A stretch of 47,024 nt of DNA from an uncultured Opitutia bacterium (GTDB lineage Bacteria; Verrucomicrobiota; Verrucomicrobiia; Opitutales; Opitutaceae), in the NCBI GenBank assembly GCA_903827245.1, contig CAIKHO010000072.1, positions 1 to 47,024 of the forward strand, read 5' to 3'. The position numbers and the translations under genes were made by a program. This document shows, piece by piece, positions 34,212-38,802 of the stretch (positions within the stretch are counted from its first letter, which is position 1; each line of letters starts with the position of its first letter). The notes beneath the pieces were generated by a model that did no database searches, was not told where the DNA came from, and saw only the letters and a list, made by a program, of their open reading frames with translations.

Positions 34212-37200
34212 CTAACCGACCCACTCCCGTGCGTTGTAGAACATCCTCATCCACGGAGAGTCCTCGGGCCAGCCGGCGGGAGCCCAACTCATGCAGGCGG
34301 TGCGATGCACCCGCTCGGGATGCGGCATCATGATTGTGACCCGACCGCTGGTGGTCGTTAGGGCGGTCATGCCCAGCGGCGAACCGTTGGGATTGAGCGG
34401 GTATTGCTCGGTGTAGATCGGTCCGCCGTCGTTCACTGAACTATGGCGAGACTGCGCAAGCGCGAGCGCTTGCTTGTTGTCGACGAATCGCGCTGCGACC
34501 AGGCCTGAATCGCTGCAGCGTTTGGCGGCCTCCGGGCTCGCGAACTCGGTGAAACCCTCGCCGTGGGAGACGGCGATCGGGATGACGGAACCTTCCATGC
34601 CGGCGAAGAGGAGGCTGGGGCTCTTTTCGATCTTCACCGACGCGAAGCGGGCCTCGAAGCGCTCGGACTGGTTTTGCACGAAGCGCGGCCAGTGGCTGGC
34701 ACCGGGAATGATCGCATGCAGGTTGCTCATCATCTGGCAGCCGTTGCAGACCCCGAGCGCGAACGTGTCCTCGCGCGCGAAGAACGCCTCGAACTCGGCC
34801 CGGGCCCGGGGATTGAAGAGGATGCTCTTGGCCCAGCCCTCGCCGGCGCCGAGGACGTCGCCGTAGCTGAAGCCCCCGCAGGCGGCGAGGCCGCGGAAAT
34901 CCCGCAGCGAGACGCGACCGGCAAGGATGTCGGTCATGTGGACGTCGACGGCCTTGAAGCCGGCGCGGGTGAACGCGGCGGCCATCTCGACCTCGCCGTT
35001 CACGCCCTGCTCACGGAGAATCGCGATTGGAGGCCGGGAAGATTTTTTAAAGGAGGTAACTGAGGAAACAGAGAAGGAATCGGTTTTGGATTTCTCGGTT
35101 CCCTCTGTTCCCTCTTGTGAAATTGGCTTGGAAAGACCGAAGGTGATCTTGGGCGAAATACCCGGGTCGGTCTGATCCAGCTTCTGTTGATACTCTTCCT
35201 CGGCGCACTGGGGGTTGTCGCGGAGGGCGGCGATGCGGCGGGTGACATCGGACCAGAGGGCGCGCAGGGTCGTGAGGCTTTCGTTGAGCAACGTCTCGCT
35301 GCCGCGCTTGATCCGGAGGGCGTAGTGGGAATTGAGCGTGCCGATGCGGGTGACGCAGGCCTTCAGGCCGTGCTGGCGGAAGACGAGGGACACGTCGTCG
35401 AGGTCCTCGCTGCGGATCTGGATGACGGCGCCGAGTTCCTCGCTGAAGAGGGCGGAGAAGGCGTTGTACCCGGAGGGAATTTCGAGATCCACGCCGACGT
35501 GGCCGGCGAAGGCCATCTCGGCGACCGTGGCAAGCAGGCCGCCGTCGGAGCGGTCGTGGTAGGCGAGGATTTTCTTCTCGCGGCCGAGCTGCTGGATCGC
35601 GTTCCAGAAACCCTTCAGGTCGGCAGCGCTGTCGACATCGGGCGGGGCGTCGCCGGTCTGGGAGACGACCTGCGCGAGAATCGAGCCGCCGAGGCGGTTT
35701 TTGCCGCGACCGAGATCGATCAGGAGCAGAATGGTTTCACACAGAGGCACGGAGGACACTGAGGTCGGAAGGTCGGATGATTTAGGGTTCGATCCCTCTG
35801 TGTTCCCTGTGCCTCTGTGGGAAACAAATCCGGGATCGTAGCGCAGTTGCGGCGTGAGCGACAAACGGATGTCGGTCACCGGGGCGAAGGCGGAGACGAT
35901 GAGCGAAACGGGGGCGGTGATGCGCTTGTCTTTGCCGCCGTCCTTCCAGGCGGTGCTCATGCTCATGGAGTCCTTGCCGACAGGAATGGTGATGCCGAGG
36001 GCGGGGCAGAGGTCCATCCCGACGGCCTCGACGGCGGCGTAGAGGTCGGCGCCGTCGCCGGGCAGGGCGGGGGCGGCCATCCAGTTGGCGGAGAGGTTGA
36101 CACGTCCGAGGTCGCCGACCTGGGCAGCGGCGAGGTTGGTAAGGGCCTCGCCGACGGCGAGCCGGGCGGAGGCGGCGGCGCTGTTGATGGCGACGGGAGT
36201 GCGTTCGCCCATCGCGAGGGCCTCGCCAGTGTAGACGTCGAACGCGGCGGCGGTGACGCCGCAGTCAGCGACGGGAACCTGCCACGGGCCGACGAACTGG
36301 TCGCGGCAGACGAGGCCGCCGACGGTGCGGTCGCCGATCGAGATCAGAAACGTTTTATCAGCGACGGTGGGATGGGAAAGCACGCGACGAACGGCTTCGA
36401 GGAGGGAGGCGCCCGGCGATTCTCTTTCGGAATCGGAGACACGCCCCGCCCTGTCGGGCATCCCTCTTTTTAGAGGGGAGCTCGGAGGCAGCGGACCCCG
36501 TTCCCCTCGATCAAGAGGGGCGCCCGAAGTGGCGGGGTGTGTGGTTCTGAGGCCGCTGAGATCCAAAGGCGAAAGCAGCCGGGAGTGCGTGACATCCGCG
36601 CGGTGCATCTTCGGGGGTTTGCCGAGGAGGACGTTGAGGGGAAGGTCGATGGGCGTGTTCTTGAAATGCGGGTCCTCGAGGACGAGCTGCTTTTTCCCGG
36701 TGGCCTCGCCGACGACGGCGAAGGGGCAGCGCTCGCGCTCGCACAGCTGGCGAAACACGGCGAGGCGATCGGCGGGGACGGCGAGGACGTAGCGTTCCTG
36801 GGACTCGTTGCACCAGATCTCGAGCGGGCTCATGCCGGGCTCGTCGTTGGGGACGGCGCGAAGATTGAAGCGGCCGCCGCGGCCGCCGTCGTTGACGAGT
36901 TCGGGCAGGGCGTTGGAGATGCCGCCGGCACCGACATCGTGGATGAACGAGATGGGGTTCGCGTCCCCGAGGGCCCAGCAGCGGTCGATGACCTCCTGGC
37001 AGCGCCGTTCCATTTCGGCGTTGTCGCGTTGCACACTGGCGAAATCGAGGTCCTCGCTGCCGGCGCCGCTGCCCATGGAGCTCGCTGCGCCGCCACCGAG
37101 GCCGATGAGCATGGCGGGACCGCCGAGAACGACGAGTTGATCGCCGGGATTGATCCCGGCCTTCTGGACGTGGCCGGCGCGGATGTTGCCCAACCCGCCG

Positions 37201-38594
37201 GCAAGCATGATGGGCTTGTGGTAACCGCGAAGTTCGGTCCCGCCGGGGGCGGGTGTAATTGGCAATTTGGAATTGGGAAGTTGCGGATTCCGTGTCGTCG
37301 GGGGCGACTTTGCCGCTATTTCCGGTCCACCGTTTCCCGTCTCCTGCGCCGCGGGGACTTCCTGCTCAAAGGTGCGGAAGTATCCGTTGATGTTAGGCCG
37401 ACCGAACTCGTTGTTGAAGGCGGCGCCGCCGAGCGGGCCTTCGATCATGATGTCGAGGGCGGAGACGATGCGGCCGGGTTTGCCGTGGTCCTTTTCCCAC
37501 GGCTGCAGGGCGCCGGGGAGGCGGAGGTTGGAGACGGTGAAGCCGGTGAGGCCGGCCTTGGGCTTGGCGCCGCGGCCGGTGGCGCCCTCATCGCGGATCT
37601 CGCCGCCGGAGCCGGTGGCGGCGCCGGGAAACGGCGAGATCGCGGTCGGGTGGTTGTGCGTCTCCACCTTGCACAGGATGTGGATGTCCTCCTCGTGCGC
37701 GGCATATTCGCCGGTCTGCGGGTCGGCGTAGAAACGGCCGCCGCGCGAGCCGGCGAGGACGGCGGCGTTATCCTTGTAGGCGGAGAGAATGCCCTCGCTG
37801 TGGAGCTGGTAGGTATTCCGGATCATCTGGAACAGCGACAGGTCGCGCTTCTCGCCGTCGATGTCCCAGGTGGCGTTGAAGATCTTGTGCCGGCAGTGCT
37901 CGGAGTTGGCCTGCGCGAACATCATCAGCTCGATGTCGTTCGGGTCGCGGCCGAGGCCTTGGAAGGCCTGCACGAGGTAGTCGATCTCGTCCGCGGCAAG
38001 GGCGAGGCCGAGCGACTGGTTGGCGGTGACCAAGGCGGCGCGGCCCTCGGCGAGGACCGGCACGCTGGTCATCGGGCGCGGGGCGTCGTGGTTGAACAGG
38101 ACGCCCAAGCTGTCGAGGTCGTTGAACACCGCCTGGGTCATGCGGTCGTGGAGCAGCGCCTGCAGGGTAGCAGACCAGGTGACGAGGCTGGGTTTGGCGG
38201 TCTCGGCTCGATCCAGCCTCCTGACGTCAGCTGCTACATCCGGTCCGAGATCGATCGTGTAGGCGACGACCCGCTCGATGCGCTTGACGGCGGTGAGCCC
38301 GCAGATGTGCGCGATGTCGGTGGCCTTGGATGACCACGGCGAGATGGTGCCGGGGCGGGGAGCAACGACCTGGAGCAGGCCGGCGACGCCGGAAGTCGGG
38401 ACGCGGGTCGGGCCGTACGAGAGGAGCTTTTCCAGGATGGCCCGCTCGGCGGCGGTCGGTTCGGCGGTGACCTCAACGACATGAACGAACTCCGCGGCCA
38501 CGGAGCGGGCGGGGATACCGGCGGCGGCGATGGCCTCAAGGAGCTTCTGGAGTCGGAAGGTGGAGAGGGCCGGCGAGCCGCGTAGGATCAGCAT
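34212..38594 (-). CDS. purL: Phosphoribosylformylglycinamidine synthase PurL, with six extra segments
   Basis: A 1460-residue large-type PurL that converts FGAR to FGAM using glutamine and ATP in purine synthesis. The start [10 protein letters not shown], the SEHCRHK and [11 protein letters not shown] synthetase motifs, and the class I glutaminase domain with nucleophile Cys1283 (GVCNGCQ) and His1425/Glu1427 (MMPHPER) are intact, so the enzyme looks active. It is about 165 residues longer than E. coli PurL as recalled. The surplus falls in six loops: about residues 118-145, 414-453, 682-726, 924-954, 1160-1182 and 1374-1396. Four of these are encoded by imperfect palindromes, one related to an intergenic repeat at 11134. 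The frame is unbroken throughout. purF and purM lie 4.6 kb away on the other strand. Confidence 0.95.
34407..34475. repeat. Extra segment in purL with short perfect palindrome (possible repeat)
   Basis: This encodes PurL residues about 1374-1396, which exceed the E. coli loop between VDN and YP-NPNGSP by about 17 residues as recalled. It contains GCAAGCGC (34456-34463) GA GCGCTTGC (34466-34473). No second copy was found, so it may be ordinary loop variation. Confidence 0.4.
35049..35116. repeat. Palindromic repeat inside purL (insert 5)
   Basis: The left arm AAAGGAGGTAACTGAGGAAA and right arm TCGGTTCCCTCTGTTCCCTC are imperfect inverted repeats. They encode PurL residues about 1160-1182 ([20 protein letters not shown]), located between the FGAM-synthase C-terminal part and the glutaminase domain. 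Confidence 0.75.
35734..35825. repeat. Palindromic repeat inside purL (insert 4)
   Basis: The left arm GTTTCACACAGAGGCACGGA pairs with a right arm that ends CTGTGCCTCTGTGGGAAAC. The repeat is 92 bp and encodes residues 924-954 ([20 protein letters not shown], then [11 protein letters not shown]). The arms resemble the inner palindromes of family F (for example 7802-7887). The PurL length excess here, about 32 residues, matches the repeat length. Confidence 0.85.
36417..36554. repeat. Three-stem palindromic repeat inside purL (insert 3)
   Basis: The outer arms 36439-36459 (ACACGCCCCGCC core) and 36522-36542 (GGCGGGGTGTGT core) match at about 17 of 21 positions. Inside are two hairpins, CCCTC-TTTTTA-GAGGG (36462-36477) and CCCCTC-GATCAA-GAGGGG (36503-36520). 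It encodes PurL residues about 681-726 (with [15 protein letters not shown]). It has the same outer-stem plus two-hairpin plan as the intergenic element at 27831-27929. Confidence 0.8.
37244..37350. repeat. Inserted segment inside purL (insert 2)
   Basis: This encodes residues about 416-450 with [11 protein letters not shown]; an AT-richer tract AATTGGCAATTTGGAATTGG stands out against GC-rich coding DNA. PurL exceeds the E. coli loop by about 34 residues here as recalled. Palindromic structure is weak and no second copy was found in the window. Confidence 0.55.
38167..38237. repeat. Family B palindromic repeat inside purL (insert 1)
   Basis: The left end GTAGCAGACCAGGTGACGAG pairs with the right end TCCTGACGTCAGCTGCTAC. 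The 71-bp unit shares its ends and GAGGCTGGGTTTGG core with the intergenic copy at 11134-11203. It encodes PurL residues about 120-143. Confidence 0.85.
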
Positions 38595-38681: not shown

Positions 38682-38802
38682 GTTTTTGCCACGAAAAGGC
38701 ACAAGATGACACGAGAGGAATCCTCCTGAGAATGTTTGGGGTTCAGACTCAAACCATTTGGATGCTTTTCGTGTCATTTCGCGCCTCTGCGTGGCGAAAA
38801 AT
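38682..38802. repeat. Family D palindromic repeat, copy 2
   Basis: The left arm GTTTTTGCCACGAAAAGGCA is inverted at the right as TTTCGTGTCATTTCGCGCCT plus GTGGCGAAAAATTC; the centre has GACTCAAACC. Same layout as 8774-8890. It lies between the 5' end of purL and the 3' end of the exported cupin gene, on minus-strand DNA. Confidence 0.8.

Follow-up and report, generated by a model that had tools for sequence, protein, structure and literature searches.

How does an essential enzyme come to carry several palindromic repeats within its reading frame? The question is raised by purL, which occupies positions 34212..38594 on the minus strand of the window, by which we mean the whole 47,024-nucleotide contig (C72) of an uncultured Opitutia bacterium whose genome assembly (G000) comprises 3.55 Mb in 91 contigs. 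We propose, with a probability of about 0.84, that palindromes resembling repetitive extragenic palindromes (REPs) or miniature inverted-repeat transposable elements (MITEs) inserted in purL and that the surviving copies are those that lie in tolerant loops and are both open and in frame. The product is a true PurL, phosphoribosylformylglycinamidine synthase, since it scored above the curated cut-offs of the NCBIfam equivalogs NF003672 and TIGR01735, and the Salmonella PurL structure 1t3t (1303 amino acids) could be aligned with it in four stretches, with extra loops between them. For comparison we used 48 non-redundant full-length PurLs of the Opitutales, from 32 genomes (G000 included) and 16 named loci, after dropping duplicates (L127, L130) and partial rows (G001, G028, G029, L151) and leaving out G033, G034 and other members of the order with weak matches only; a second set held 61 PurLs of other bacteria, by title nearly all Gammaproteobacteria. 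Lengths ranged from 1286 to 1460 amino acids in the Opitutales and from 1293 to 1373 (median 1298) outside the order, and the 1460-residue PurL was longer than the 47 other Opitutales proteins and the 61 outsiders. The motifs GVCNGCQ and PHPER, which we take to be catalytic, are readable in the sequence, and the frame is kept through six extra segments. An earlier note, made from the sequence alone, had described a 1460-residue open reading frame (ORF) with catalytic motifs and frame intact, as we find; taken as a whole, its observation is partly confirmed and holds with corrections.

Extra segments of PurL and their genomic copies

Measured against the alignment median, the excess lies at residues 121-137, 418-451, 675-730, 922-951, 1159-1179 and 1378-1394 and amounts to +13, +29, +47, +28, +18 and +17 amino acids, 152 in all; the earlier note had given 17, 34, 47, 32, 19 and 17 for its six loops. 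We label the loops by residue, 119 and 121 denoting one loop, 1158 and 1159 another, and 418, 675, 922 and 1378 the rest. The 119 insert (38167..38237, minus strand like all six; residues ~120-142, 23 amino acids) is a REP-dimer-like palindrome bounded by GTAG...CTAC, with ends reading GTAGCAG...CTGCTAC, so that the GTAG tag stands at the outer ends of the palindromic dimer. The 675 insert (36417..36554; residues ~681-726) is a long nested palindrome with its core at 36439-36542 and arms of ~41 nt, and the 922 insert (35734..35825; residues ~924-953) is a CACAGAGG-type palindrome whose 31-nt arms (35734-35764, 35795-35825) enclose a loop of 30 nt. The 1158 insert (35049..35116; residues ~1160-1182), a shorter palindrome with CACAGAG-like arms, sits immediately before the PurQ-like part of PurL, which starts near residue 1190. 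At the ends of these last three palindromes, as read, we found neither a GTAG nor a CGTC tag. Against mononucleotide shuffles, the fold z was -2.3 for the 119 insert, -6.7 for 675, -6.0 for 922 and -5.9 for 1158, and by absolute energy the result was mixed, equal-length insert-free purL windows being at least as stable in 38 of 234, 0 of 206, 23 of 225 and 48 of 235 cases, respectively. These z values bear out the claim that at least four of the extra segments are imperfect palindromes, all of which are copied elsewhere in the genome. The 418 insert (37248..37334; residues ~421-449) showed no palindrome (z -0.9; 210 of 223 insert-free windows at least as stable), nor did the 1378 segment (34413..34463; residues 1378-1394; z -1.1 by codon shuffle), which we place outside the mobile-palindrome set.

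The search of each insert against the host genome, suggested in the earlier note, revealed that the four palindromic inserts are dispersed. Matches were joined into places by hand, and the counts given here include the query itself. The 119 insert occupies at least 40 distinct places (47 matches, 7 of them the opposite strand of a place already counted; 40 of 81 candidates scored), the 675 insert about 16 (25 matches) and the 922 insert about 36 (57 matches at E ≤ 1; about 27 places at E ≤ 0.01), and the 1158 insert gave 4 matches. Surroundings were read in a sample of 447 kb (12.6% of the genome), drawn from contigs that had come up in the initial search, with genes called by a simple custom script. 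Here the other copies of the 119 insert were intergenic in 5 of 5 places, which makes it a high-copy, mostly extragenic repeat; those of 922 were intergenic in 8 of 9 entries, the ninth overlapping a gene end, and those of 1158 in 2 of 2. Pooled over the four inserts, 16 of 17 listed copies in the sample were intergenic and the remaining one overlapped the end of a gene; a single palindrome, by its two arms, accounts for two of the entries. With terminal inverted repeats, many copies and short length, the 922 and 675 inserts have the features of MITEs, of which the 1158 insert lacks the high copy number. When purL was cut into 90-nt windows, 26 of 144 matched elsewhere in the sample at E ≤ 0.001, and all windows with matches below 1e-5 lay at the four palindromes; nine weaker matches (5e-5 to 6e-4) lay in ordinary coding sequence and two at the 418 insert. 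Of the 418 insert only a ~25-nt piece (37255-37279) recurs, with five further matches at E values no higher than 0.06, and its sole sample copy is within a called gene. The four palindromic inserts belong to three or more types of repeat that are scattered through the G000 genome, and they constitute palindromic insertions carried in frame within a protein gene.

The same loops in related PurLs

The 48 Opitutales PurLs were aligned with 6 of the 61 outsiders, a loop being any place where some row is at least 10 amino acids above the median. Eight loops hold 82 inserts of at least 8 amino acids, found in 34 of the 48 Opitutales PurLs, with 14 of the 48 having none; by loop the counts are 3 (42), 2 (121), 19 (418), 12 (675), 15 (922), 9 (1040), 18 (1159) and 4 (1378). 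None of the six aligned outsiders has an insert of at least 8 amino acids at these eight loops, and over the 61 outsiders each loop is at least 8 amino acids above its own median in just 0 or 1. On a tree computed by FastTree from 1181 core columns, support values unused, parsimony required, loop by loop in residue order from 42 to 1378, at least 3, 1, 13, 7, 11, 7, 12 and 4 changes between insert and no insert. Random placement in 200 shuffles gave means of 15.9 for loop 418, 11.0 for 675, 13.2 for 922, 8.4 for 1040 and 15.2 for 1159, with minima of 12, 8, 10, 4 and 11, respectively. With 7 changes against a shuffle minimum of 8, the 675 loop is thus more inherited than in any shuffle; one of its inserts is common to G015 and G030, and another instance of sharing joins G003, G022, G026, G027 and L125. 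Loops 418, 922, 1040 and 1159 are just slightly more clustered than expected by chance.

Closely related PurLs differ in their loop contents. G019 is empty at 922 and 1159, and L124, whose core is 87.7% identical, is filled at both; L131 has no insert and G031 has inserts in five loops; G027 and L125 (92.8%) differ in the contents of 1159 and have alignable contents at 922. For the single cases, neither gain nor loss is proven. Relatives lack the segments of the G000 PurL or for the most part hold different ones in the same loops, although G002, a congener by its genus code, has a 922 insert of equal length that can be aligned with that of G000. Of the 28 base pairs of the G002 fold, 19 are identical in G000, four are changed on both sides yet still pair, and five are broken. 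G002 also contains a near-identical second copy of its 922 insert at 1159, so copying within purL or from elsewhere is possible. The outcome that the earlier note had named as contradicting it, namely that all close relatives share the segments with normal divergence and that no copies occur elsewhere, was checked and is not what we observed.

The 1378 segment (QALALAQS...GPIYTE) behaves differently from the palindromic inserts. Homology to it is recognisable in G003 and L119 and more diverged in G031, and the segment is absent from the tree sisters of these PurLs, a patchy distribution that suggests allele exchange or repeated loss; it is a homologous stretch of patchy occurrence and no element. 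Old shared loops with normal divergence, which we accept for 1378 and partly for 922 (G000 with G002, G027 with L125), were rejected as a general account of the inserts.

Two of the rows call for comment. The PurL of L123, from a record titled Akkermansia muciniphila, groups with Opitutaceae-type rows in the tree, and the record is probably mislabelled. The purL of G007 (G007:C1:7246634-7250713) lies within an open frame of 2017 codons, far longer than the gene.

Origin and fate of the inserts

We suggest that non-autonomous short palindromes, normally intergenic and of three or more types (REP dimers as well as MITE-like hairpins), have entered purL several times. Insertions that break the frame, bring a stop or strike the folded core would be lost, and in-frame, open insertions in a few surface-type loops would be kept and translated as disordered extensions. 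An extended loop may then tolerate further insertion or replacement, by which the same loops would come to hold unrelated elements in different lineages. Mobile insertion is favoured by the mostly intergenic copies of four inserts and by homologous sites that are empty or differently filled, such as those of G019 and L124 or of L131 and G031. It is also favoured by an excess of hairpins: 33 of the 82 inserts are more stable as folds than their codon-shuffled versions (z ≤ -2; one insert at z ≥ 2), compared with 3 of 82 equal-length insert-free segments of the same genes (none at z ≥ 2).

A further argument for insertion comes from the reading frame. Fourteen inserts have CACAGAG-type arms on both sides and form the CACAGAG class, in which 29 of 31 left-arm motifs are in the frame encoding T-E and 30 of 31 right-arm motifs in that encoding S-V, where one third would be expected if frame were irrelevant. 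As motifs within one insert are not independent, we also counted per insert and found T-E to be the majority frame in 12 of 14 and S-V in 13 of 14; a looser count that drops the demand for two arms, and also catches flanking codons, gave 45 to 4 and 30 to 3. The sense frames open in G000 number one of three for the 119 and 675 inserts, two of three for 418 and 922, and three of three for 1158.

Mobile insertion into tolerant loops is also favoured by structure prediction. In the AlphaFold2 model, which covers residues 1-1200 and was built from 42 rows (mean predicted local distance difference test (pLDDT) score 71.4, predicted template modelling score 0.76), the inserts at 420-448, 685-724 and 923-949 are predicted as unstructured loops with pLDDT below 50 and no secondary structure, and the core matches Salmonella PurL structures (template modelling score about 0.79 by query). 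The 119 insert is modelled as partly helical with moderate confidence, and residues 1146-1200 also have low pLDDT, at the cut end of the model.

As for what might move the elements, Y1_Tnp (PF01797), the domain of the REP-associated tyrosine transposases (RAYTs), is matched in 33 of the 36 searched members of the family group, G000 being among the 36. Among 13 Y1 neighbourhoods of relatives scanned at a hairpin score of at least 24, four (L234, L235, L242, L243) have hairpins that adjoin or overlap the Y1 ORF. In G005 (L235), GTAGCCGGG-type palindromes lie beside the Y1 ORF, one of them just downstream, and a pair overlaps the 5' end of this ORF, which was called stop to stop. The same GTAG-type GTAGCCGGG motif occurs within purL of G005 and of G031, which argues for mobile insertion, and its position beside the Y1 ORF agrees with the published hypothesis of mobilisation by RAYTs (PMC3733652). 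Movement would then be by transposition, the GTAG-type elements probably being moved by a Y1/RAYT transposase, of which this assembly has no match, and the CACAGAG and 675 types by such an enzyme or another; the inserts themselves may be neutral.

Several observations weigh against this reading. PF01797 gave no match in G000, a 97% complete assembly, so the association with a RAYT is lacking there, nor in G024 and G030, both of which carry inserts. No hairpin with a score of at least 24 is near the other 9 of the 13 Y1 loci, and the 119-family pattern, searched by exact match, is absent from all 13. No clear target-site duplication can be read by eye in the diverged neighbours, the nearest having 81.5% nucleotide identity. 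The listed 119 copies are mostly 76-86% alike and the 922 copies are alike mainly over one arm, hence no recent jump is caught. By absolute folding energy the 119 and 1158 inserts are weak, and 49 of the 82 inserts are above z -2, so that element status is not demonstrated for every insert. With two of three frames open in the 922 insert and all three in 1158, stop codons alone constrain the frame little. Low pLDDT is also seen outside the inserts, in several core stretches such as 315-333 and 499-524, and is thus not peculiar to them. Finally, translation of the inserts is a matter of inference.

Some of these points fit a process in which no element moved, slippage and template switching having expanded free PurL loops into quasi-palindromes. 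Such fast drift would account for the 49 inserts that are not significant hairpins, for the non-palindromic 418 loop of G000 and for the alignable 922 contents of G027 and L125, which represent drift in place, and arm-to-arm correction could produce the four compensating and five broken pairs that separate the G000 and G002 inserts. However, it does not predict that four inserts match dispersed genome copies, or that the GTAGCCGGG motif recurs intergenically and in purL of two genomes, and we regard it as unlikely. Still less probable, in our judgement, is that the inserts were selected for a function, as messenger RNA hairpins or DNA sites controlling purL or as new protein contacts. The strong hairpins of several inserts and the four 922 pairs kept by double changes between G000 and G002 agree with this idea, but 14 of 48 PurLs manage without any insert of at least 8 amino acids, insert contents differ between sisters, three inserts are modelled as unstructured, and the frame bias suggests tolerance by the protein. 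Repeats are a known cause of misassembly and G000 is in 91 contigs; an assembly artefact is nevertheless rejected as highly improbable, since the frame is intact across six extra segments and independent genomes, including the single-contig G005, G006 and G021, have in-frame inserts in the same loops.

Mobile insertion into tolerant loops may be part of something broader, although we hold this extension to be doubtful at present. The Opitutales could have landing loops (418, 922 and 1159 in PurL, and the junction of GTPase domain and domain 2 in the release factor RF3) in which unrelated palindromes are inserted, stacked and swapped, their content turning over between sister species, with at least the CACAGAG family suited to translation. 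This family is abundant, has no GTAG or CGTC tag, and one and the same frame turns its two arms into T-E and S-V repeats. If true, mobile palindromes would be a steady, family-wide supply of new protein segments in essential enzymes. The purL inserts by themselves make the question raised by the Rickettsia elements, whether selfish palindromes can build proteins, testable across tens of genomes: the same loops of an essential enzyme have been filled many times, stand empty in some relatives and are compact in PurLs from other orders. The inserts also explain the erratic PurL lengths in the family, and such loops may mislead alignment and annotation.

Precedents and other affected genes

The closest precedent is the intragenic GTAG REPs of Opitutus terrae, nearer than the Rickettsia elements as far as the published texts considered here extend. 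The main text of PMC3733652 (2013) reports intragenic REPs, of which the GTAG kind is most numerous in O. terrae, where both uvrA genes carry two insertions each; over half of the inserts encode 20-30 amino acids inside genes, the palindromes are single or dimeric, and in two Xanthomonas species recB holds different REPs at roughly one position. Related bacteria, a GTAG-bounded palindrome and more than one insertion per gene are shared with our case; the named relatives of G000 include Opitutus and Opitutaceae, and the nearest of them are records of Opitutaceae and of other Opitutales type. In contrast, at least three unrelated palindrome types are present here in one gene, three of the four palindromes are without the GTAG tag, and refilling of the same loops extends over the 48 Opitutales PurLs. 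That main text does not name purL, and our literature searches, supplementary files aside, returned no report of such palindrome refilling for this gene. The Rickettsia palindromic elements (Ogata et al. 2000, 2002), as described in the review PMC10969869, are ~150 bp long, belong to several families and occur in frame in metabolic genes unrelated to one another, roughly half of their copies lying outside genes. They share with the purL inserts the palindromic nature, the several families and the in-frame position, but they are from a different phylum, the likeness is one of description, and what chiefly marks our case is that the same loops of a single protein are affected repeatedly. The resemblance to these elements, with several families in one essential gene, had been proposed in the earlier note; that interpretation is supported as a resemblance and for at least three types, and does not extend to the 418 and 1378 segments. 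REPINs (REP doublets forming hairpins) and bacterial interspersed mosaic elements (BIMEs) with their RAYT (TnpA-REP) are likewise non-autonomous palindromes beside a Y1 gene, as in G005, but they are described as extragenic (PMC3116915, PMC2817692, PMC8266576), and G000 is without a Y1 match. In-frame mobile palindromes are thus already known as a kind, several unrelated families recurring in one gene making this a striking case; what is new is that tagged and untagged families are mixed in a single essential gene and that the same loops are refilled throughout the family.

purL as the sole affected gene was ruled out by RF3 and by in-frame hairpins in other genes. RF3 of G000 (prfC, C42:49497-51209, L085:9497-11209) contains a palindrome that is read in frame at about residues 285-302 of the gene as called, between the GTPase domain and domain 2. 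Across 14 genomes, G000 included, this region measures 30 to 67 residues; it is compact (30-31) in five (G032, G006, G003, G007, G023), and the others are longer and different in sequence, several with inverted repeats as judged by eye, no shuffle test being applied. The RF3 match of G017 (L214, G017:C3:123918-125624) is flagged with one internal TAG. Named by reading the sequence, a CcoG-like gene (L097, G002:C11:45076-46665), a lipoyl-domain protein gene (L096, G002:C11:27523-28020) and a MetH-like gene (L109, positions 84567-87392 of a joined stretch of G005) also have in-frame hairpins.

That purL is unusual in its palindrome load is partly supported. At a hairpin score of at least 30, a threshold with one hit in the entire Markov control, 12 hits fell inside called genes over 847 kb from three genomes, five of them in three purL genes, the G002 and G005 stretches having been picked to contain purL; three of the seven other hits (C21:88469, C21:82474, C86:5806) may precede the true start or be alanine-rich DNA. 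An ungapped scan of the G000 sample (score at least 17) gave 51 palindromes, 41 intergenic, 6 at gene edges and 4 inside genes, two of these four in purL, and it missed the 119 and 1158 inserts. Two control proteins were compared by match spans. GltB showed no change of at least 8 amino acids in 10 relatives (three others have distant homologues only, and one is broken over contigs), and IleS gains at least 8 amino acids in 5 of 14 relatives, 34 in G003, so purL is not alone in varying; the 25- and 9-amino-acid pieces of the G003 IleS showed no long hairpin, as read without a shuffle test.

Rfam returned for the inserts only microRNA hairpin matches below the gathering score, which we judged to be the chance resemblance of any hairpin, and known RNA families were set aside. 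Upstream of purL lies an intergenic palindrome (38683..38800) with 41-nt arms, which belongs to another dispersed family with five other sample places, all of them intergenic. Together with this palindrome, further intergenic ones of the same or related families are found in the contig at 7808-7883, 8776-8875, 11134-11203 and 31462-31538.

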